A program made the translations under genes and the position numbers. This document shows positions 10,451-22,557 of a DNA stretch of 62,001 bases, piece by piece. The stretch covers positions 1 to 62,001 of the forward strand of contig JAILRW010000042.1 of NCBI GenBank assembly GCA_024698005.1, written 5' to 3'. The stretch comes from Sphaerochaetaceae bacterium. Lineage in GTDB: Bacteria; Spirochaetota; Spirochaetia; Sphaerochaetales; Sphaerochaetaceae. Each line of letters begins with the position of its first letter. The stretch's first letter is position 1. The notes beneath the pieces are model-generated. The model worked only from the letters and a program-made list of their open reading frames with translations, was not told where the DNA came from and searched no databases.

Positions 10451-11776
10451 TTAGTTCTTCATCGAGAATGGCTGTCTTGTATTTTCCAGAACATCTCTCC
10501 AAAGAGAACCTTCAACATCTACATGGTTTCTTCTAGAAACAGCCTGCTTGATTGGTAGATATACGAACTTGTTGTTAACTCTACTTACAAGACACATGGT
10601 CTTTCCACTCATTGCTGCATGAACAGCATGGGCACCGAGACGGGCACAGTAGATGCTGTCGTAGCTATTGGCAGGAGCGGAGCGGATAATGTAGGAAGGA
10701 TCGATGTACTTCACAGAGGCTCTGATATTCTCCTTTGCAAAATACTCCTTGATCTTGTCCTTCAGGAAGATTCCGATATCATTCATCTTTGTGTTTCCAC
10801 TTGCATCGACCTCTCCTGTTGGAGGAACAAATTCCTGTCCAGCTCCTTCAGCAACAAGAATTACTGCATGGCCTCTATCCTGCAATCTCTTTTTCAGGTT
10901 GACGAGAAGACCATTCTCACCATCGAGATCAAATGGAGATTCTGGGATCAAACAGAAGTTTACATCGGACTGTGCAAGAGTTGTATGAGTGGCAATAAAG
11001 CCAGACTCTCTACCCATGACCTTTACAAGGCCAACACCATTGATTGCATTTCGTGCTTCAACATGAGCGCCACGGACGATACCTGCAGCGACCTGAGTTG
11101 CTGTATCGAAACCGAATGATGAGTCGATGAAGGAAAGGTCATTATCAATTGTCTTAGGAACACCGACAACTGCAATCTTCAGACCTCTCTTCTTGATCTC
11201 AAGGCCAATTGCATTTGCGCCCTTGAGTGTTCCATCGCCTCCGATACAGATGAGAATATTTATATTATTTCTTTCAAGTGTATCTACAATTTCTTCAGTC
11301 TTGTTTCCGCCACCTCTTGAAGAGCCAAGGATTGTACCACCCTTCTCCTGAATGTCATCGACAACAGAAGGAGTAAGCTGGATGAATGGATAGTTAGCAT
11401 CCTTCAGAAGACCGTTGTAGCCATACTGGACACCAGAGATTCTTCTAACCCCATATCGGTACCAAAAACACCTTACGACTGCTCTTATTACATTATTCAA
11501 ACCTGGGCAGATACCACCACAGGTTGCGATGGCGACATGCACATGTTGTGGATTGAAATAGATCTTCTCCCTTGGACCTGCAAGTTCCATGGTTTCACTT
11601 CTTTCTGGAACTCTATTTCCCTTCTCATCTACTTTAGTCTGAACAGAGAAAAGAACTCTGTCGTCGTCAGAAACATAGTTTGCACAGCCATCACCTGCGA
11701 CACGGCTCATATCTATTGGAGATACAAGCTTTGCTTCCCCCAAAGAGACAACATTAAAATCTAAAGTCTCACTCAT
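10451..11776 (-). CDS. pfkA: 6-phosphofructokinase (group III/plant-Entamoeba-like PFK)
   Basis: Phosphorylates fructose 6-phosphate in glycolysis. The protein is 441 residues, longer than E. coli PfkA because of an 80-residue N-terminal extension. Conserved elements include GGICPGLN, GGDGT at 179-183, PKTIDND at 207-213 (Asp211 and Asp213 equivalent to the catalytic pair) and MGRESGF. The donor-site residues are Gly182 (E. coli Gly104 equivalent) and Lys208 (Gly124 equivalent). PPi-dependent enzymes normally have Asp plus Lys, whereas Gly plus Lys is known from ATP-using Entamoeba-type enzymes, so ATP is the better guess, though such proteins are often labelled PPi-dependent. The ATG at 11776 has TGGAGGA upstream and overlaps the end of the ModE-like gene. 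Confidence 0.92.
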   Translation of the reverse strand: MSETLDFNVVSLGEAKLVSPIDMSRVAGDGCANYVSDDDRVLFSVQTKVDEKGNRVPERSETMELAGPREKIYFNPQHVHVAIATCGGICPGLNNVIRAVVRCFWYRYGVRRISGVQYGYNGLLKDANYPFIQLTPSVVDDIQEKGGTILGSSRGGGNKTEEIVDTLERNNINILICIGGDGTLKGANAIGLEIKKRGLKIAVVGVPKTIDNDLSFIDSSFGFDTATQVAAGIVRGAHVEARNAINGVGLVKVMGRESGFIATHTTLAQSDVNFCLIPESPFDLDGENGLLVNLKKRLQDRGHAVILVAEGAGQEFVPPTGEVDASGNTKMNDIGIFLKDKIKEYFAKENIRASVKYIDPSYIIRSAPANSYDSIYCARLGAHAVHAAMSGKTMCLVSRVNNKFVYLPIKQAVSRRNHVDVEGSLWRDVLENTRQPFSMKN

Positions 11777-12134
11777 CGTCTTCCTCCAAAAGTATATCAA
11801 GATTCCTTACAAATTCTCTGTAAGGCTCTTCCGTTCTCTTTTTGGCCTCATCCTGAAATGAGTTGTACAGCTTTATAAAGCTCTGACCAAAAGGACTTAA
11901 GCTGGCACCACCGCGATCCTGTCCACCCTTCTTGCGTTCAATTACATTCTTGCCAAGATGCTTCTCTAGACGATTTATCATCAAGAGTGCCTTGGAATAG
12001 GAGATGTCCATGTTCATGGCCGCCTGTCTCAGAGAGCCACAGCGTGCGAGCTCCTCCAGGAGCCACATCACACCAATTCCCATGAACTTCTCCCCTTCAC
12101 CGTCAACAAGATAGAGCTTTACTTTTAGGTCCAT
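11769..12134 (-). CDS. ModE-N-like winged-helix transcriptional regulator
   Basis: A 121-residue protein with the LysR-type winged-helix fold used by the N-terminal domain of ModE. Diagnostic segments are GVMWLLEELARCGSLRQAA, the recognition helix DISYSKALLMINRLEKHLG and the wing ERKKGGQDRGGASLSPFGQ. It lacks the C-terminal molybdate-binding MOP domains, so it cannot sense molybdate in the classical way. Overlaps of ten bases with the aminotransferase gene upstream and eight bases with pfk downstream place it inside a tightly coupled operon. Stand-alone proteins of this type often occur near molybdenum hydroxylase genes, and a xanthine-dehydrogenase-like cluster begins 3.5 kb away, which may or may not be meaningful. 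Confidence 0.85.
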   Translation of the reverse strand: MDLKVKLYLVDGEGEKFMGIGVMWLLEELARCGSLRQAAMNMDISYSKALLMINRLEKHLGKNVIERKKGGQDRGGASLSPFGQSFIKLYNSFQDEAKKRTEEPYREFVRNLDILLEEDDE

Positions 12135-13461: not shown

Positions 13462-13488
13462 ATTTTGATGTCACCATGTCATCAAAAT
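13462..13488. promoter_or_regulatory. Dyad between ligA and the aminotransferase gene
   Basis: ATTTTGATG at 13462-13470 and CATCAAAAT at 13480-13488 are exact inverted copies nine bases apart, and the inner CA/TG pair extends the symmetry. It overlaps the ligA stop codon. No U-run follows on the minus strand, so an operator or mRNA stabilising stem is more likely than a terminator. Confidence 0.35.
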
Positions 13489-15569
13489 AGCTCGCCTTGG
13501 ATGTCGTTTTTATCGCTTTTGGTTTCACTTTTTTTTCCAATCAGCTCAAGGAATTCCTCCTCAGTTACTATTATAACACCAAGTTTCTCTGCTTGTGTTT
13601 TTTTGCTGCCTCCACCCTTTCCTACTAGGAGATGGGTTGTCTTGCCTGTCACAGAAGAAACACTTCGACCTCCACGCTTTTCAACCTCTTTCATCGCAAG
13701 GCCTCTTGGATTGAAGTTCTCAAAAGAGCCTGTAACACACCAGACCTGACCAGAGAATATCTGCTCCTCGTTATTCTCTTCCTTCACCTCTACAAACTGT
13801 AGGCCAGCAGCTCTGAGCTTCTCAATTCTTTCAATCATCACAGGGTCGTTGAGAGCATTCATTATCAGAAGAGCGGACTGCTCTCCCACCTGAGAAATTC
13901 TGGTAAAGGCTTCTATGTCATTGTTCCTGGAAGCTTCAAGGAGCTTGTCGATACTGTCAAAACCTCCCTTTACCAGAATCTCTGCACCCTTGGAGCCAAC
14001 CTCTGGGATGCCAAGGCTTGCGAGCACAGTATGGAATGGTCTACTGAGACTCTCCTTCACTGCACTCTTGAACTGTTCAATTGTCTTATCCCCAACCCCT
14101 TTGACACCAACTAGACGATCGTAGTCACAGGTATAGAGATCAGGAATATCTTCGACCAGCTTGTTCTCAACAAGAAGCTGGACCGCTTTTGGACCTATGC
14201 TCTCCATATCCATCTGGTCTCGTCCTGTGAAGAATGAGATCCTTCCTAGAATCTGATCAGGACAGCTTCTGTTGACGCAGAAAAGATGAGCTCCCCTTGA
14301 TACCAGAACAGAGCCACAGGAAGGACAGAGAGGAGGAATTACATAAACTCCATTACCCTTCTCATTCTTCTCGATTACCTCTTCTACTGCAGGAATTACA
14401 TCACCCCTCTTTACAACAGAAACAGTGTCCCCAATTGAAAGCTCCAAGGTGTTTATATACTCCTGATTGTGCAAGGTTGCTCTTTTTACGGTAGAGCCCC
14501 CAAGCTTTACGGCCTCAAGCTCTGCAACAGGTGTTATACGCCCTGTTCGGCCAACCTGGACTGTGACATCCAGAACCTTTGTCTGGGCCTGAGGGGACTC
14601 GAACTTGTAGGCAATTGCCCACCTTGGATGGTGCTCTGTATAGCCAAAGGCTTCGCGGACGCTCATCTCACAGACCTTTGTTACCATACCATCTATTTCA
14701 TAAGGAAGACTCTGCCTTCTCTCTGTTACCATCTCAAGGTAAGAGCCCAGTTCGTCAAAAGCATGGCCCTCTCCTTCAAGGCCTGCCTCTTCGAGCCTCC
14801 TTCTTGACTCTTCTGCAGAGGAAGAGAAGAGAGCAAAGTGTGGGTTTATCCTAAAGCCAAGCTTCTTGAGCCTTGAGAGAATTTCAATGTGGTCGCTTGG
14901 CGCATCTCCCTCATCCCAGAAACCCTCGTATATGAATATATCGAGAGGCACTTCTGCAGCTTCACTTGACTTCTGCCTTCTCACTGTACCAGCGGCAAGA
15001 TTTCTTGGATTTGCAATCTGGGGATACTTATCTTTAAGACGCTCAAAGTCAGCCTTTGGAAGATAGACCTCTCCTCTTACTGCCAAGTTGATTGGCTCAG
15101 GAAGACGAAGAGGGACTGAGTGGATAGTCTTGATATTTGCAGTTACATCATTACCGACGTGGCCATTGCCTCTGGTTACAGCTCTGGCAAGCACACCATC
15201 CTCGTAATAGAGGACCATAGAAATTCCGTCTATCTTCTCTTCTTCTGCAAAGGATAGCCTTCCTGAAGCCTTTACTTCACTCTTGTTCATCCAATCGAGG
15301 ACGGCTTGTGCAGAGTATGCCTTATCAAGAGAAAGGACGGGAATCGTATGTTCCACTTCGGGGAAGTCACTTGTGAGATCGCTTCCAACTCTCTGGGTTG
15401 GAGAATCGCTCCTCATAAGTTCTGGATGTTCCTGTTCGAGCTTTACAAGCTCATCAAAAAGAGCATCGTATTCAAGGTCACTCTTCAAAGAGTTTCCATC
15501 AACATAATAGGCTCTCTGTAGCTCTATCAACTCATCAGAGAGAGTGTCAATTCTTTCTTTAACGTCCAT
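13482..15569 (-). CDS. ligA: NAD+-dependent DNA ligase
   Basis: Seals nicks during replication and repair using NAD+. The 695-residue length is standard. The adenylated lysine is Lys112 in EEKIDG; an OB fold follows; a four-cysteine zinc finger is formed by CPSC and CVNRSC; helix-hairpin-helix repeats follow (GVKGVGDKT, LGIPEVGSKGA); and a BRCT domain ends the protein (about 595-685). The start has TATAAT only six bases upstream (plus 15576-15581) and no Shine-Dalgarno site, so translation is probably leaderless. It heads the minus-strand operon that continues to pfk and is divergent from the xanthine-dehydrogenase-like cluster. Confidence 0.97.
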   Translation of the reverse strand: MDVKERIDTLSDELIELQRAYYVDGNSLKSDLEYDALFDELVKLEQEHPELMRSDSPTQRVGSDLTSDFPEVEHTIPVLSLDKAYSAQAVLDWMNKSEVKASGRLSFAEEEKIDGISMVLYYEDGVLARAVTRGNGHVGNDVTANIKTIHSVPLRLPEPINLAVRGEVYLPKADFERLKDKYPQIANPRNLAAGTVRRQKSSEAAEVPLDIFIYEGFWDEGDAPSDHIEILSRLKKLGFRINPHFALFSSSAEESRRRLEEAGLEGEGHAFDELGSYLEMVTERRQSLPYEIDGMVTKVCEMSVREAFGYTEHHPRWAIAYKFESPQAQTKVLDVTVQVGRTGRITPVAELEAVKLGGSTVKRATLHNQEYINTLELSIGDTVSVVKRGDVIPAVEEVIEKNEKGNGVYVIPPLCPSCGSVLVSRGAHLFCVNRSCPDQILGRISFFTGRDQMDMESIGPKAVQLLVENKLVEDIPDLYTCDYDRLVGVKGVGDKTIEQFKSAVKESLSRPFHTVLASLGIPEVGSKGAEILVKGGFDSIDKLLEASRNNDIEAFTRISQVGEQSALLIMNALNDPVMIERIEKLRAAGLQFVEVKEENNEEQIFSGQVWCVTGSFENFNPRGLAMKEVEKRGGRSVSSVTGKTTHLLVGKGGGSKKTQAEKLGVIIVTEEEFLELIGKKSETKSDKNDIQGELF

Positions 15570-15650: not shown

Positions 15651-17612
15651 ATGGCAGACAATACAAACAATAGTTTCGGCGGTGCAAACCATCTGTGCTA
15701 TGGCACACTACTGCTGGCAAAAGCAGCAGCAGAGGATATCACATCTCTGACTCTGCCGGAAAATAGTCATTGTACACCTATCACCTGGGAAGATATCCCT
15801 GGGGTTAATTCCATTCAAATTTTCTCTGGCTCCATGCCAATCCTTGCCAATAACACTATTAGCTACAAGGGACAGCCTATCCTTGCCATGATAGGTCCTG
15901 ATTACGAATCATCAATCCTAGCTATAAAGGCAACCAAGCTGGAAACAAAGAAGAGAGAAACAGCAGGAGAAGAAAAGGGCTCAACTGACTGTCCAGAGCC
16001 AGAGGAGTTGGTGCTCTCCTGGTCAAGTCAAAAGAACAATGAAGAAGAGAACCTCGAAGAACTAAAAAAGATCGAATCCACCTTCTTTTCAAAATCGACC
16101 TTGATCGATACCGATACCAACATAACCTGTATAGCCTGGGAAAAGGATGGAAGACTTCACGTTGATATTCCTTGCAAATGGCCAGATCTAGTCAAGGAAA
16201 CAGTTGCTAAGGTTTCGGGATATCAGAAAAAGAATGTCTTTGTGCATACTATAGAGTGCCACTCACACTACGATGAATATGCAGTTTTCCCTGCTCAACT
16301 TGCAGCAATTACAGCAGTTGCAGCCATCAAAATGAGCACTACTGTTGAACTCAGAAGCCCTTTGGTCAACAGAAGCCCTGAAGTAACCATCAAGAGGACA
16401 ACCTGGTGTGACTCAAATGCTCTTCCTATTAGAGAAGAGGTACAGATGACTGCAGAGCTTGGTGCATTCCTTTTTGCACCAGAAGAGTACCAGAGACAGG
16501 CAATCACAGGCCTTATCCCAAACTATCAGCTGAACAGCTTTGTCGCCAAGGTCAACGTAAAGAAGTCTCAATTGATGCCTTCCCTAGTCTGTGGTTCTAT
16601 GGGCTATTCTGTCGCTATTGCCTCCTCAGAGACTCAGGTAGACCTCATTGCTGAAAAGTTCGAGCTTTCTCCTCTTGCCTGGAGAAACCGCAATCTTTCT
16701 GGCAAACGAAGATTCACAGATTATCTTCCAGCAATAGAACTATCTCCATTGAAGGAAATCTACAAAGAAATAGTCGAAAAGTGTAACTATAGAAGGAAGT
16801 GGCCATCATACCACATCCAGGATGGAAACATGTCTTTTCTGGACTTCTCAAGAGGTATAGGCATGGCAGTAGGTGTAGGTATCTCCGGTATCTCTACCAC
16901 TCTTGCAAAGGCCACAAACTATCAGGCAAGGCTCAACTACACAACGAAGAACAACATTACCTTGAGCTTCTCTCTTCCTGCAAAGAGTCATAGTGGCAAG
17001 CTTCTAAAAGAACTCATTTCCAACGAAATGCGATTGAATGAGGATTCAGATGTCATCCTCTTTGAAAGTGATACCAGCTCCCTCACCAGTGGTCCTGCAA
17101 TCCTTGGCAGAGTCACCGGTATGCTGCCAAAGCAGACTTTGAATTCTTGCAGAAAGCTCCTGAGACAGGCAAAAACTCAAGAACCTCCACTTACTCTTAC
17201 ATTCGACGTGGATGACAAGGTAAACCCTTGTGAGTTTGAAAATAAAGGTTCTATGGCCGTTATAGTAGAAGTTTATACAGATGATATAACTTTCGAACCG
17301 GTTGTAAGAAGTGTCTGGGCCAACATTGTATTGGGACAAATCATCGACGAGAACAATCTAAAATCCCGTTTGAAGTTTGTAATTATCGATGCCTTATATA
17401 ATTCAGGCGCAGTACTTTCAAAGGACAAGGAACACCCATTCACTGTAAACCTAAACCTTGAGAGTAAAAACATCGATGGTATTTGCAATATGAACCAGAC
17501 CATCCAGGGACTCGTCCAAGCAGCCTTTCTCAATGCAATGAGGCAGTGCTCTGGAGTAAAAAAGCTAGCCGTTCCAGTATATCCTAGAGATCTGGCTGAA
17601 AATCAGGAGTAA
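15651..17612 (+). CDS. Degenerate xanthine-dehydrogenase-family large subunit
   Basis: A 653-residue protein related to the molybdopterin subunit of xanthine dehydrogenase/aldehyde oxidase. Family marks are the small N-terminal domain with KGQPILAMIGPD (about 73-84), the WEKDGRLHV strand and the QTIQGLVQAAF helix. The cofactor motifs are not recognisable: the GGGFGGK position reads IECHSHYDEY (about 201-210), the RGFG position reads CGSMG (about 314-318), and the protein ends about 15 residues after the QGL helix, so the segment bearing the catalytic GVGE glutamate is missing. It therefore probably does not bind molybdopterin. I recall a similar orphan protein annotated quinoline oxidoreductase in Treponema pallidum. 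The frame is open to a TTG at 15597, but the ATG at 15651 is preferred. First gene of a three-gene operon. Confidence 0.8.
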   Translation: MADNTNNSFGGANHLCYGTLLLAKAAAEDITSLTLPENSHCTPITWEDIPGVNSIQIFSGSMPILANNTISYKGQPILAMIGPDYESSILAIKATKLETKKRETAGEEKGSTDCPEPEELVLSWSSQKNNEEENLEELKKIESTFFSKSTLIDTDTNITCIAWEKDGRLHVDIPCKWPDLVKETVAKVSGYQKKNVFVHTIECHSHYDEYAVFPAQLAAITAVAAIKMSTTVELRSPLVNRSPEVTIKRTTWCDSNALPIREEVQMTAELGAFLFAPEEYQRQAITGLIPNYQLNSFVAKVNVKKSQLMPSLVCGSMGYSVAIASSETQVDLIAEKFELSPLAWRNRNLSGKRRFTDYLPAIELSPLKEIYKEIVEKCNYRRKWPSYHIQDGNMSFLDFSRGIGMAVGVGISGISTTLAKATNYQARLNYTTKNNITLSFSLPAKSHSGKLLKELISNEMRLNEDSDVILFESDTSSLTSGPAILGRVTGMLPKQTLNSCRKLLRQAKTQEPPLTLTFDVDDKVNPCEFENKGSMAVIVEVYTDDITFEPVVRSVWANIVLGQIIDENNLKSRLKFVIIDALYNSGAVLSKDKEHPFTVNLNLESKNIDGICNMNQTIQGLVQAAFLNAMRQCSGVKKLAVPVYPRDLAENQE

Positions 17613-17615
17613 TGA

Positions 17616-18146
17616 ATGAAGGTAGAACTTGTAGTAGATGGAAAGACCCTTTCCTTGAACGTCAGCTCAGATAAACCACTATCAGAACTCTTGAGAGAAG
17701 ATGTTGAGATCAAATCACTAGAATCCTGCTGTCATGGAGACATGTGTGGAAAATGTATTGTACTATTAAACGGCAAGGCTGTCCTTTCCTGCCTGATTCC
17801 AGCCTTCAATGTAAAGAATGCTACTGTAGTCACCTATGACAGTTTTTCAAAAACAAAGGACTTCAAGGATATAGAAAATGCTTACATCTCTCTCGGTGTA
17901 GAGCCATGCGTAAACTGTTATGCATCCAGAACTCTTCTGATCGAGAACATCCTAAGAAGGTATGAAGAAGCTGATTTGGGTGATAACGCACTTCTCGATG
18001 AAAACATGCTGAACGAAATAATGAGAGAGAATGAACTTATAAAGTGTTTCTGCATGGATATGAATAGCTTTATAGAAATCGTCAAGGAAAGTCTGAACAA
18101 TAGGAGGAAGAGAAATGTCAATGTATACGGAACTAAGATCTCCTAA
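17616..18146 (+). CDS. XDH-family [2Fe-2S] small subunit
   Basis: A 176-residue iron-sulfur protein of the CoxS/XdhC type. The plant-ferredoxin-like cluster ligands are Cys39, Cys44, Cys47 and Cys59 (HGDMCGKC pattern), and the second cluster is carried by Cys98, Cys101, Cys144 and Cys146. All eight expected cysteines are present, although the usual CGFCTPG and CRCTGY contexts have diverged to CVNCYAS and CFCMD. So electron transfer may survive even though the partner large subunit seems to lack its molybdenum site. The ATG has CAGGAG upstream, three bases after the large subunit, and the gene overlaps the FAD subunit by 32 bases. Confidence 0.82.
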   Translation: MKVELVVDGKTLSLNVSSDKPLSELLREDVEIKSLESCCHGDMCGKCIVLLNGKAVLSCLIPAFNVKNATVVTYDSFSKTKDFKDIENAYISLGVEPCVNCYASRTLLIENILRRYEEADLGDNALLDENMLNEIMRENELIKCFCMDMNSFIEIVKESLNNRRKRNVNVYGTKIS

Positions 18147-19023
18147 TGTCCACGAACCTAAAACCATCGGAGAGTACGCAGAAACTGTTATCAATTACAA
18201 TGGCAGTATCAATTCACTCTGGGCAGGTGGCACCTATATCATGTCCCGTCCAAACTTCTACCCATCCCCTGCGACGAATGTAGAGATTATCAATCTGAAG
18301 GATATTGAAGAGCTTTACCGTATCCAGAGAAATGACCGCTTCTCTGAAATTGGAGCAATGGTTTCGTTGAATGACATAGCGCTTTTGGGAAGCAATATCT
18401 TCCCGAAGACCTTGCTTCAGGCAATCGAAAGCACTGCATGCAGATTGATAAGAGAGAGAATATCTGTTGGAGGTACTCTCTGCACTCAAGGTTTCAACTC
18501 TTCTGTTTCTTCTGTACTCATACTGCTTGATACAGCAGTTGAAATCATAATCCCCAAGAAGAGAAACTTCACAAGAAGATGGGTACATGGCTCAAGACTA
18601 TATGATAAGAATGGCAAGTTCGTTCTCAATACTGTCTTTTCTAACGCCATGGTCTCAAAGATTAGAATCGTTATCCAGAACTTTGATTTTGAGTACTTCA
18701 AAACCGCAGGAGAACCTATAAAGAATCCATCCGAAGCTGTCTCTCTTGCCGTGGTTTCAAAACTTGACCAGAATGGTGTCTCTTCGCCAAGACTCATAAT
18801 AACATTCCCATCCATTGGCTTTGTCTACAGCAAGGATATCGATAATCTGCTTGCCAATCTGCCACTACCTGCAAATGAAAACAGAACAAGAGATCTTTAC
18901 AGGAACATTCTTGGCTACATCAAGGAAAATCTGGGGCCAATTTCTAAGATCCAACAGGTACGTCTCAGGGGTATGCTGAAGGATATGGTCCTCTCTCTGA
19001 ATCAGCATATTCTGTCCTTGTAA
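18115..19023 (+). CDS. XDH-family FAD-binding subunit (CoxM/XdhB type)
   Basis: A 302-residue protein of the molybdopterin-dehydrogenase FAD-binding family. The two flavin-contact loops are visible in diverged form: WAGGTYIM (about 36-43, for the usual AGGTDL) and SVGGTLCTQ (about 121-129, for the usual TIGGNIA). The C-terminal part matches the CO-dehydrogenase flavoprotein C-domain only loosely. It starts inside the Fe-S subunit gene with AGGAGG seven bases upstream. With its two neighbours it would form an L-M-S type complex, but the physiological substrate is unknown and may not be a hydroxylation at all. Confidence 0.78.
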   Translation: MSMYTELRSPNVHEPKTIGEYAETVINYNGSINSLWAGGTYIMSRPNFYPSPATNVEIINLKDIEELYRIQRNDRFSEIGAMVSLNDIALLGSNIFPKTLLQAIESTACRLIRERISVGGTLCTQGFNSSVSSVLILLDTAVEIIIPKKRNFTRRWVHGSRLYDKNGKFVLNTVFSNAMVSKIRIVIQNFDFEYFKTAGEPIKNPSEAVSLAVVSKLDQNGVSSPRLIITFPSIGFVYSKDIDNLLANLPLPANENRTRDLYRNILGYIKENLGPISKIQQVRLRGMLKDMVLSLNQHILSL

Positions 19024-19065: not shown

Positions 19066-22000
19066 ATGGCAGTTAAAGACGTTCACTATCCACCCTATGG
19101 ACCCGATGAGGTCCTCGACAACTTTGTACACCTACACAACCACACCGACTATTCACTGCTCGATGGGGCTGCAACAATAGGTAAATACATGGCAAAGCTC
19201 AGAGAGTACAAGATGCAGGCCATGGCCATTACCGACCATGGAAACATGTATGGTGCCCTGAGATTCTACAACGCTTGTAAGGCTGCAAACATCAAGCCAA
19301 TCATTGGCTGTGAGTTCTATGTAAATCCAAAAAATAGAAAAGATACCAGTCCTCCTAGTGAAGGAAATAGATACTATCACCTCATTCTTCTTGCTATGAA
19401 TGACCGTGGTTATCACCATCTGATGGAGCTCAACTCCATTGCATTCACAGAAGGCTTCTACTACAAACCTAGGATCGATGACGAGGTACTCGTAAGCCAT
19501 AGCGATGACCTTATCTGCCTTTCTGCCTGTCTTGGTGGAGAAATTCTCCAGCTTTTGCTCGATAACGAGCACAAGCACACTGAAGAGCAGTGCTATGAGA
19601 TGGCAAAAGAGAGAGCTGCCTGGTTCAAGAGCATCTTTGGCGACAGATACTATATCGAGCTTCAAGATCATGAGCTTCCAGAGCAGAAAAGGACCAATCC
19701 TCTTCTTGTAAGGATTGCAAGAGAGCTGGACATTCCTCTCGTCTGCACTAACGACTGTCACTATGTAAACCGCGATGATGCCAACGCCCACGACGTTCTT
19801 CTCTGTATCGGTACCAACCGAAAGAAGAACGAAGAGGACAGGATGAGATTCCCTAACGACAACTTCTATCTCAAGAGTGGAGATGAGATGAGGAAAATCT
19901 TTAGCTGGTGTCCAGAGGCTTATGAAAACACAAAGAAGATAGCAGATAGAATCAACATTGACATCAAGTTCCCAGGCCCTCTTCTTCCAGAATTTGAGGT
20001 TCCAGAAGGATTTAACAACACAGCAGAATATCTAGTCTGGCTCAGCTACGATGGATGCAAGAAAAGGTATGGAAAGCTCACCCCTGAGCTGAAAGCACGT
20101 CTTGATTACGAGCTTGGAATCATTTTGAAGATGGATTTCCAGGGCTACTTCCTGATCGTAAGAGACTATATCCACTGGGCAAAGATGCACGATATTCCTG
20201 TAGGCCCAGGCAGAGGTTCTGGTGCAGGTTCCCTCGTCGCCTACTCCATCACGATTACAGATGTCGATCCTATGAAGTACTCACTGCTCTTTGAAAGATT
20301 CCTGAACCCAGAAAGAGTTAGCATGCCGGATTTCGATATCGACTTCTGCTTCGAAAGAAGAGGTGAAGTAATCCAGTATGTAACCGACCACTATGGAAAG
20401 GATAGAGTTGGTCAGATCTGTACATTTGGAACACTCAAGGCGAAGGCGGTTGTTAAGGATGTCGCACGTGCCCTTGACATCCCATACGGTGAAGCAAACT
20501 CTATCTGTAAGCTCATCAGCGATGATGCAAAGAACCTCAAAGAGGCCTTCGAGCTCGAACCAAAGCTCAAGGAGCTTGAGGACAGGGGTGGCATATATGC
20601 AGAACTATTCGATGTCTCAAGAAGACTTGAAGGAGGAAACCGACACACATCACTGCACGCAGCAGGTGTTGTTATTGGTAAAACCCCTTTGATAGACTAT
20701 GTGCCTCTGAACTTCGATCCAAAGACAAGGTCCGTTGCTTCTCAGTACACAATGGACCTTATCGAAGACTGTGGACTTGTCAAGATGGACTTTTTGGGTC
20801 TCAAGACCCTCACTCTTATCAAGCACGCTGTCGATCTGATACACAAGGTAAATCCTTCATTCGACATCACAAAAATCGATGAAGAGGATAGGAAGACCTT
20901 CGACATGCTTTGCAGAGGCGACTCTGCCTGTGTCTTCCAGTTTGAATCTGGAGGTATGCAGAAGGTACTTCGCGATGCTCAACCAAATACAATAGAAGAC
21001 CTCGTTGCTTTGAATGCACTCTATCGTCCAGGTCCAATGCAGTATATCGAAAAGTTCGTAAACTGTAAGAATGGCATCTGGGATATAGAATATGATGACC
21101 CTGACCTTGAGCCAATCCTGAAGACAACCTACGGAATCTGCGTATATCAGGAACAGGTAATGCAGGTTGCTCAGGTAATTGCCGGCTACACCCTTGGTGA
21201 AGCTGATATTCTCAGAAGAATCATGGGTAAGAAGAAGGTCGATCAGCTTGCCGAGCAGAAGGTAAAGTTCATCGCAGGAGCAAAGAAGCTTGGAAGGACA
21301 GAAGAACTTGCAACCAAAGTATTCGCATTCCTTGAACCGTTTGCTCAGTACGGCTTCAACAAATCACACGCTGTTGCCTACTCTGTAGTTGCCTATCAGA
21401 CAGCATTCTTGAAGGCAAACTACCCTGCTGAATTCCTTGCAGCAAACCTCACAAACGAGATGAACAGCCCTGACAAGTTCAAGGAGTACCTTGCACTTGC
21501 AGATACAATGAATATCAAGTTGATGCCACCTGATATCAATGCCTCTGAAAAGCACTTCAATGTTGTCAATGGAAACATTGTCTATGGTCTTGCTGGTATC
21601 AGAAATGTTGGTGAACAGGTAACTCAGCTCATAGTTGAGGAGAGGGAGAAGAACGGACCATACAAGTCAATGATGGACTTCATCAGCCGCCAGAGCGAGG
21701 GTCTTGTAAATGGACGTCTGCTTGAATCCCTTATAAAGGCAGGAACCTTCGATTCTCTAAAAGAGGACAGAGCTACCCTAATGGCAAACCTTGAGGGTAT
21801 GATCGCCTTCGACAAGAGCAACAAGGAATCTACAGCATATGGACAGATTGGTCTCTTCGATGATGATGTGACAATGCACAGCTACGAGATGAGACAGGCA
21901 GAGCCTTGGTCAAAAAGAGAGATGCTTGAAATGGAGAAGGAGTTCTTGGGCTTCTATGTCTCTGGGCATCCTCTCGATGAGTACAAGGAACATGTAGACC

Positions 22001-22557
22001 GCTGTGTCTGGGTCGATATCTCAAAGCCAAAGGAACTTCCTCTGAACAGAAGCGTTTCCTTGATCTGTCAGGTAAATACATTCAAGGTCCTCAAGACCAA
22101 GAAGGGACAGAATATGGGAATCTTCTCTCTGTCCAACTATCAGGGAAATATCGATGCAGTTGCCTTTCCGAAGAGTTTTGACGATATTGAAGGAAAGGTT
22201 GTAGTTGATGGTATTTATGGTTTTACTGGTAGATTTGACAGCAGAAAGGATTCAGATACCTATCAATTCATAATTGAAAGTGTTTCTGCTCCTGCAGATC
22301 TCAAGAGCGAGGCCATAACCTCTGTCTGTCTTGAGTTCGATGAGGAGCTTGTCTTGAACGAACACCTCGAACAGCTCGAAGACGAGCTCAAGAGGTACAT
22401 AATTGAGCACACCGGTGGTCTAAAGGTCTTCGCATATATTGGCTCCAATAGAAAAGAGAAGATCGCCTTTGGAAGAGATTACTCACTTGAATACAGCAAG
22501 AATCTCAAGAAGGAGCTTGAAAGTTACGACCTCATCAAGAGCGTCTGGTATGCATAA
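19066..22557 (+). CDS. dnaE: DNA polymerase III alpha subunit
   Basis: The replicative polymerase, 1163 residues, of the DnaE1 kind. The N-terminal PHP domain begins VHLHNHTDYSLLDG and continues with AITDHGNMYG. The palm contains the PDFDIDF metal-binding aspartates and the GPGRGSGAGS loop. A helix-hairpin-helix and an OB domain follow near the C-terminus (about 990-1080). Histidines and aspartates of the PHP site look largely intact, so proofreading-type activity is possible, but this is inference. Likely leaderless, with TATAAT nine bases ahead. Followed ten bases later by yggT. Confidence 0.97.
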   Translation: MAVKDVHYPPYGPDEVLDNFVHLHNHTDYSLLDGAATIGKYMAKLREYKMQAMAITDHGNMYGALRFYNACKAANIKPIIGCEFYVNPKNRKDTSPPSEGNRYYHLILLAMNDRGYHHLMELNSIAFTEGFYYKPRIDDEVLVSHSDDLICLSACLGGEILQLLLDNEHKHTEEQCYEMAKERAAWFKSIFGDRYYIELQDHELPEQKRTNPLLVRIARELDIPLVCTNDCHYVNRDDANAHDVLLCIGTNRKKNEEDRMRFPNDNFYLKSGDEMRKIFSWCPEAYENTKKIADRINIDIKFPGPLLPEFEVPEGFNNTAEYLVWLSYDGCKKRYGKLTPELKARLDYELGIILKMDFQGYFLIVRDYIHWAKMHDIPVGPGRGSGAGSLVAYSITITDVDPMKYSLLFERFLNPERVSMPDFDIDFCFERRGEVIQYVTDHYGKDRVGQICTFGTLKAKAVVKDVARALDIPYGEANSICKLISDDAKNLKEAFELEPKLKELEDRGGIYAELFDVSRRLEGGNRHTSLHAAGVVIGKTPLIDYVPLNFDPKTRSVASQYTMDLIEDCGLVKMDFLGLKTLTLIKHAVDLIHKVNPSFDITKIDEEDRKTFDMLCRGDSACVFQFESGGMQKVLRDAQPNTIEDLVALNALYRPGPMQYIEKFVNCKNGIWDIEYDDPDLEPILKTTYGICVYQEQVMQVAQVIAGYTLGEADILRRIMGKKKVDQLAEQKVKFIAGAKKLGRTEELATKVFAFLEPFAQYGFNKSHAVAYSVVAYQTAFLKANYPAEFLAANLTNEMNSPDKFKEYLALADTMNIKLMPPDINASEKHFNVVNGNIVYGLAGIRNVGEQVTQLIVEEREKNGPYKSMMDFISRQSEGLVNGRLLESLIKAGTFDSLKEDRATLMANLEGMIAFDKSNKESTAYGQIGLFDDDVTMHSYEMRQAEPWSKREMLEMEKEFLGFYVSGHPLDEYKEHVDRCVWVDISKPKELPLNRSVSLICQVNTFKVLKTKKGQNMGIFSLSNYQGNIDAVAFPKSFDDIEGKVVVDGIYGFTGRFDSRKDSDTYQFIIESVSAPADLKSEAITSVCLEFDEELVLNEHLEQLEDELKRYIIEHTGGLKVFAYIGSNRKEKIAFGRDYSLEYSKNLKKELESYDLIKSVWYA

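Follow-up and report, generated by a model that had tools for sequence, protein, structure and literature searches.

The stretch of DNA that we analysed (62,001 nucleotides of a Sphaerochaetaceae contig, hereafter the window) carries a gene set resembling xanthine dehydrogenase (XDH). Its open reading frames on the forward strand agree with the initial annotation in comprising all three subunits in the order large, [2Fe-2S], FAD (Table 1). The genes are full length, as first described, and the M-A-[ED] start of the large subunit is common to homologues aligned at the same position. Their description as overlapping is right for one junction and wrong for the other: the Fe-S and FAD genes overlap by 32 bp, and 3 bp separate the large-subunit and Fe-S genes. 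No downstream gene supplies a further C-terminal domain, as the next gene is dnaE.

Table 1. Features of the XDH-like gene set and its flanking genes in the window (Moco, Mo cofactor).
Feature	Position	Strand	Description
Large subunit of 653 aa, beginning with the ATG at 15651	15651..17612	+	XDH-large-subunit fold without Moco motifs
IECHSHYDEY, residues 201-210 of the large subunit	16251..16280	+	Occupies the site of the GGxFGGK glycine-rich loop
CGSMG, residues 314-318 of the large subunit	16590..16604	+	Occupies the RGFG(APQ) site
[2Fe-2S] subunit, 176 aa	17616..18146	+	All eight canonical cysteines present
FAD-domain subunit, 302 aa	18115..19023	+	AGGT and (T/S)xGG flavin loops; CODH/XDH medium-subunit fold
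ligA (DNA ligase), divergent neighbour	13482..15569	-	Named from sequence
dnaE, directly downstream of the FAD gene	19066..22557	+	Named from sequence

Pfam and NCBIfam placed all three proteins in the XDH family with weak scores, far under all equivalog cut-offs (Pfam: MoCoBD_1, 33.6 bits, large subunit; Fer2, 24.9, Fe-S subunit; FAD_binding_5, 54.6, FAD subunit). The same search gave no MoCoBD_2 match in the window large subunit, and a phmmer search of PDB sequences found no XDH match; fold comparison did find XDH. The AlphaFold model of the large subunit (pLDDT 89.4, pTM 0.89) has the hammerhead and MoCoBD domains of Mo hydroxylases and aligned with bovine XDH (3etr_C; Z 34.4 over 625 residues, Foldseek E 1e-36), spanning its residues about 588–1310 at ~13% identity.

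Aligned with canonical paralogues of the same order, the large subunit has IECHSHYDEY opposite (T)GGGFGGK and CGSMG opposite RGFG, exactly as the initial annotation had read them. Asp208 of the first motif is conserved in at least 90% of the order-level family of such Moco-motif-lacking proteins (hereafter orphans), whose consensus at the RGFG site is FG(D/S)LGY. Neither GGxFG nor RGFG was retained in the alignment by any of 49 orphans of the order or 108 of the class, and the order orphans examined held no intact cofactor motif at a shifted position. Both GGxFGGK and RGFG were present in 11 of 11 canonical paralogues aligned, and every motif is retained in the canonical XDH paralogues that share a genome with an orphan. 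The large subunit had also been thought to stop before the GVGE glutamate, which is mistaken: because the model pairs with bovine XDH, up to its residue 1310, through to its own last residue, the GxGE loop has gone by internal deletion and not by truncation, and in the window protein and Sphaerochaetales the C-terminal helix behind it is retained. Orphans of five families (f42, f36, f27, f20 and f32) still show a GIGE loop, and some outgroup families hold traces of the old loops (LDGKLWY and AGFGLSQG) that are lost in Sphaerochaetales. Large subunits in the order sample shared 19–35% identity with the window protein; an alignment of 35 of them was too diverse to yield patterns, and a search of genome contigs with the single window protein gave no match, its sampled peptides not being conserved. 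The orphan complex is thus a Mo hydroxylase by descent and fold, but not by its defining Mo site.

Matches to the large subunit occurred in 137 of 139 Sphaerochaetales genomes, for which about 134 is the safer figure since three of the matches (G034, G071 and G072) are so weak that they could come from canonical paralogues. With a profile, 350 of the 394 Spirochaetia genomes gave a match, some from canonical paralogues only. The class genomes listed without a match belong mostly to one family (f19, 0.9–1.8 Mb), presumably the Borreliaceae. Our inspection took in about 120 loci in roughly 30 families (49 orphans of the order, 108 of the class in all, and about a dozen more), and the order was large-FeS-FAD at every orphan locus where the contig allowed. 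A search with the Fe-S alignment returned at least 80 loci, all spirochaetal among the matches listed; named relatives among the matches listed were Sphaerochaeta, Candidatus Ornithospirochaeta and Sphaerochaetaceae bins. Sampled members of two families of the same phylum outside Spirochaetia (f48 and f53) were canonical XDHs. The earlier idea of a spirochaete-specific family therefore stands as far as sampled, with a class-wide range that excludes the Borreliaceae-like genomes.

In FastTree phylogenies, in which long branches are present, orphans fell on one side of a branch from canonical XDH alone with support 100, and from canonical XDH, selenium-type XDH (SeXDH) and XdhD together with support 99. 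As these far groups all fall outside the orphan branch, a single origin is favoured, most likely at or before the base of the class and followed by vertical inheritance. All three genes are under purifying selection, with median dN/dS of 0.052 (large), 0.039 (Fe-S) and 0.033 (FAD) and ranges within close pairs of 0.037–0.082, 0.007–0.060 and 0.011–0.094, respectively. No inactivating stops were found in the listed matches of the order. The initial view that the set is not decaying at random is borne out by these values (dN/dS 0.03–0.05).

All eight cysteines of the Fe-S subunit are in place, as noted at the outset, with one extra cysteine besides, and all eight are retained in about 99 orphan rows. 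They have been lost in separate lineages (G076, G164, G142, G139 and genomes of family f24) and partly elsewhere, with full or partial loss at intact operons (L039, L253, L226, L232, L251/L260, L334 and L336). In one complete 2.2 Mb genome (G076) at least seven of the eight are gone, and within f24 the loss affects cluster I (G211, G402, G390 and G622). The FAD subunit of the window keeps its loops as WAGGTYIM (AGGT loop) and SVGGTLCT (TIGG loop), and it is modelled (pLDDT 88.7) with the fold of the CODH/XDH medium subunit, the pLDDT being low (about 59) in the AGGT-loop region. The AGGT loop retains its GG in 94 of 109 rows and the TIGG loop in 106, with G076 and Treponema pallidum included; in Sphaerochaetales the second loop is altered over its GGNIxNxSPxxD segment. 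In these alignments, no cofactor feature of the family is more constant than the FAD loops. Because they persist where Fe-S ligands have repeatedly been lost, FAD, whose binding is predicted, is likely to be the essential cofactor. The proposal that the set had become an electron-transfer complex survives only in part: given the independent losses of [2Fe-2S] ligands, its general role is unlikely to be the transfer of electrons from a Mo-like catalytic centre.

The initial annotation had pointed to a similar orphan in T. pallidum, and the operon is indeed present there (G211, at about 87 kb). This genome is one contig of 1,139,633 bases, the length of the resequenced Nichols genome (1,139,633 bp; PMC3769245). 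Its large subunit lacks the Moco motifs; in its Fe-S subunit the four cysteines of cluster I are gone and those of cluster II are kept. It is thus the same family and the same operon as in the window, but without cluster I, with amino-sugar genes before it and without dnaE after it. A literature search found no functional paper on these T. pallidum genes, which are presumably those annotated as 'quinoline 2-oxidoreductase' in the TP0080 region; such misleading oxidoreductase annotation may have hidden the family.

Conservation in genomes without Moco synthesis had been put forward as support for a new function, and is seen in relatives of the window genome. In G076 the operon is present and MoaA, MoaC, MoeA_N and a MoCoBD_2 protein are all absent, and T. 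pallidum G211 is not among the MoaC-positive genomes of the 394 in the class. Among the 139 order genomes, MoaA was found in 11, MoaC in exactly those 11 and MoeA_N in 2, and among the 394 class genomes MoaC was found in 119; in the family of T. pallidum (f24), MoaC was found in 5 of 64 genomes with a large-subunit profile match (hand count from tables). For the window genome itself, a search for moa/moe genes gave the opposite answer: it encodes modC-moaA-moaC on another contig (G000:C121; L079:241-2679; named from sequence and MoaA/MoaC profiles) as well as an XdhD-type Mo hydroxylase. The argument for a Moco-free complex therefore rests on the lost motifs, G076 and T. pallidum. The window genome had no MoeA_N match despite this cluster. 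The window also encodes, at 11769-12134 on the reverse strand, a 121-aa LysR/ModE-type winged-helix protein that is conserved close to ligA at 29 loci in the order; ModE-like proteins elsewhere are molybdate sensors.

MoCoBD_2 Mo hydroxylases occur in 138 of 139 Sphaerochaetales genomes, as XdhD in a purine-type ygfK-ssnA-xdhD cluster (for example, L072, L074 and L078, from genomes G009, G038 and G063, and G000:C134). XDH with intact motifs often accompanies XdhD in this order. XdhD-like proteins (L072:9872-12778 and similar; TIGR03313 over cut-off) have none of the eight canonical Fe-S cysteines in their N-terminal domain. MoCoBD_2 enzymes in genomes lacking MoaA/MoaC either salvage Moco, receive it from other genes or dispense with it. 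Since many such Sphaerochaetales carry intact-looking Mo hydroxylases, absence of MoaA/MoaC alone is no proof that Moco is absent.

The genomic context of the set differs across the class. In Sphaerochaetaceae it lies between a divergent ligA and dnaE, yggT and recG. Across this family ligA is conserved as a neighbour, but we do not regard it as a functional component of the complex; dnaE lies directly 3′ of the set in most families of the class. We considered a functional tie to dnaE, ligA, recG or rsmD and took these as conserved synteny only. In most families outside Sphaerochaetales, co-directional genes for a NusG-like protein, a CapD/PglF-like 4,6-dehydratase (PF02719) and a DegT aminotransferase (PF01041) directly precede the large, FeS and FAD genes, often followed by dnaE. 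Of the 66 loci analysed, 47 have the aminotransferase and 40 the dehydratase, and both genes precede the operon in the reduced T. pallidum genome too. The NusG-like gene (RfaH/LoaP-type, named from sequence) heads the block in many Spirochaetia families (for example, L221, L222 and L225). The block is probably ancestral. In the Sphaerochaetales genomes tested the dehydratase had no orthologue-level match, so the link to amino sugars may be merely positional.

On this evidence, we consider it likely that the orphan is a Moco-free, FAD-dependent, neofunctionalised descendant of an XDH-type heterotrimer. The Moco loops are lost in all members examined, and the fold, operon order and purifying selection are kept; the complex persists where Moco synthesis is absent, and its FAD loops stay where [2Fe-2S] ligands have repeatedly been lost. 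Because the complex is strongly maintained without the Mo-cofactor site, it probably does a job that needs no molybdenum, most likely as an oxidoreductase or ligand-binding complex, predicted to depend on FAD and usually [2Fe-2S], on the XDH scaffold. The FAD subunit would hold the indispensable cofactor of a flavoprotein, and in most lineages two [2Fe-2S] clusters would continue to connect the flavin electronically with the large subunit. There a remodelled pocket (the conserved Asp of APxDE/HYDEY, FGDLGY and DSGP..LS) may take up, in place of Moco, a substrate or a regulatory ligand; after loss of the clusters, flavin chemistry or scaffolding alone might suffice. The GIGE loop of f42, f36, f27, f20 and f32 counts against this explanation, being odd if the old active site was abandoned early. 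A fuller picture, possible but doubtful, is that of a class-wide enzyme family whose XDH scaffold was emptied of Moco and gained a new catalytic centre, which has FAD as its sole indispensable cofactor and which serves the amino-sugar pathway of the envelope or another core pathway in spirochaetes, T. pallidum among them.

A sharper version of this explanation, overlapping with it, makes the complex an enzyme dedicated to the synthesis of NDP-amino sugars or envelope glycans, such as a FAD/[2Fe-2S] oxidoreductase acting on the 4-keto/4-amino sugar of the upstream pair; this we regard as possible but doubtful. An ancestral role in NDP-4-amino-sugar synthesis for an envelope glycan, similarly speculative, is suggested by the position of the complex directly after the co-directional NusG-like, dehydratase and DegT genes outside Sphaerochaetales. 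There is a biochemical precedent, as [2Fe-2S]/FAD chains act after 4,6-dehydratases in 3,6-dideoxyhexose synthesis (E1/E3). However, Sphaerochaetales keep the complex without dehydratase orthologues, and the presence of dnaE in the same block means that synteny need not imply function. We also considered the DegT-like neighbour as an E1-type 3-dehydrase partnering the Fe-S/FAD subunits and rejected it: the catalytic lysine (SFYATKTITTGEGG) is retained where the motif was found, so the protein looks like an ordinary aminotransferase.

It is rather improbable that the trimer is a pure scaffold or pseudoenzyme in which redox chemistry is dispensable, kept for structure, assembly or regulation through binding of proteins or small ligands. 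Intact operons whose Fe-S cysteines are fully or partly gone in several separate lineages would fit such a role, but most orphans keep the eight cysteines, nearly all keep the FAD loops and the Fe-S gene is strongly constrained, which argues that redox cofactors matter in most lineages.

That the complex is still a Mo hydroxylase, holding Moco through diverged loops and drawing the cofactor or a precursor from its surroundings, seems very unlikely. The full XDH fold, the GIGE of some families and the modC-moaA-moaC cluster of the window genome are compatible with it, and salvage is conceivable in view of the canonical Mo hydroxylases in related genomes lacking MoaA/MoaC. Against this, both Moco-contacting loops are lost in all orphans and kept in XDH paralogues of the same cell, the GxGE loop is deleted in Sphaerochaetales, and the operon is present in T. 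pallidum and G076, both without a MoaC match. A decaying, functionless relic operon, for which the high divergence of the large subunit might speak, is practically untenable given dN/dS of 0.01–0.09 in all three genes, the listed order matches free of inactivating stops, retention in a 1.14 Mb genome and class-wide occurrence.

Near-universal in Spirochaetia and kept in the highly reduced T. pallidum, the complex probably serves a core spirochaete function. A natural series of losses runs through the family, from the Moco loops in all members to GxGE and on to cluster I or both clusters, and lends itself to studying how a redox complex is repurposed. To our knowledge, this is the sole broadly conserved branch of the Mo-hydroxylase superfamily to have dropped Mo and kept all three subunits. 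With the XDH/Mo hydroxylase (xanthine oxidase) family the orphan shares its gene set of three subunits, the FAD and [2Fe-2S] folds and the full large-subunit fold. It differs in lacking the Moco-binding loops, in the lost or deleted GxGE, in an identity of about 13%, in being conserved where Moco synthesis is absent and in the loss of Fe-S ligands in some lineages. Also close are the XDH and XdhD (ygfK-ssnA-xdhD) paralogues of the same spirochaetes, which have homologous domains and both branch outside the orphans; in contrast to the orphan, GGAFGGK, RGFGAPQ and GMGE are all intact in the XDH paralogue.
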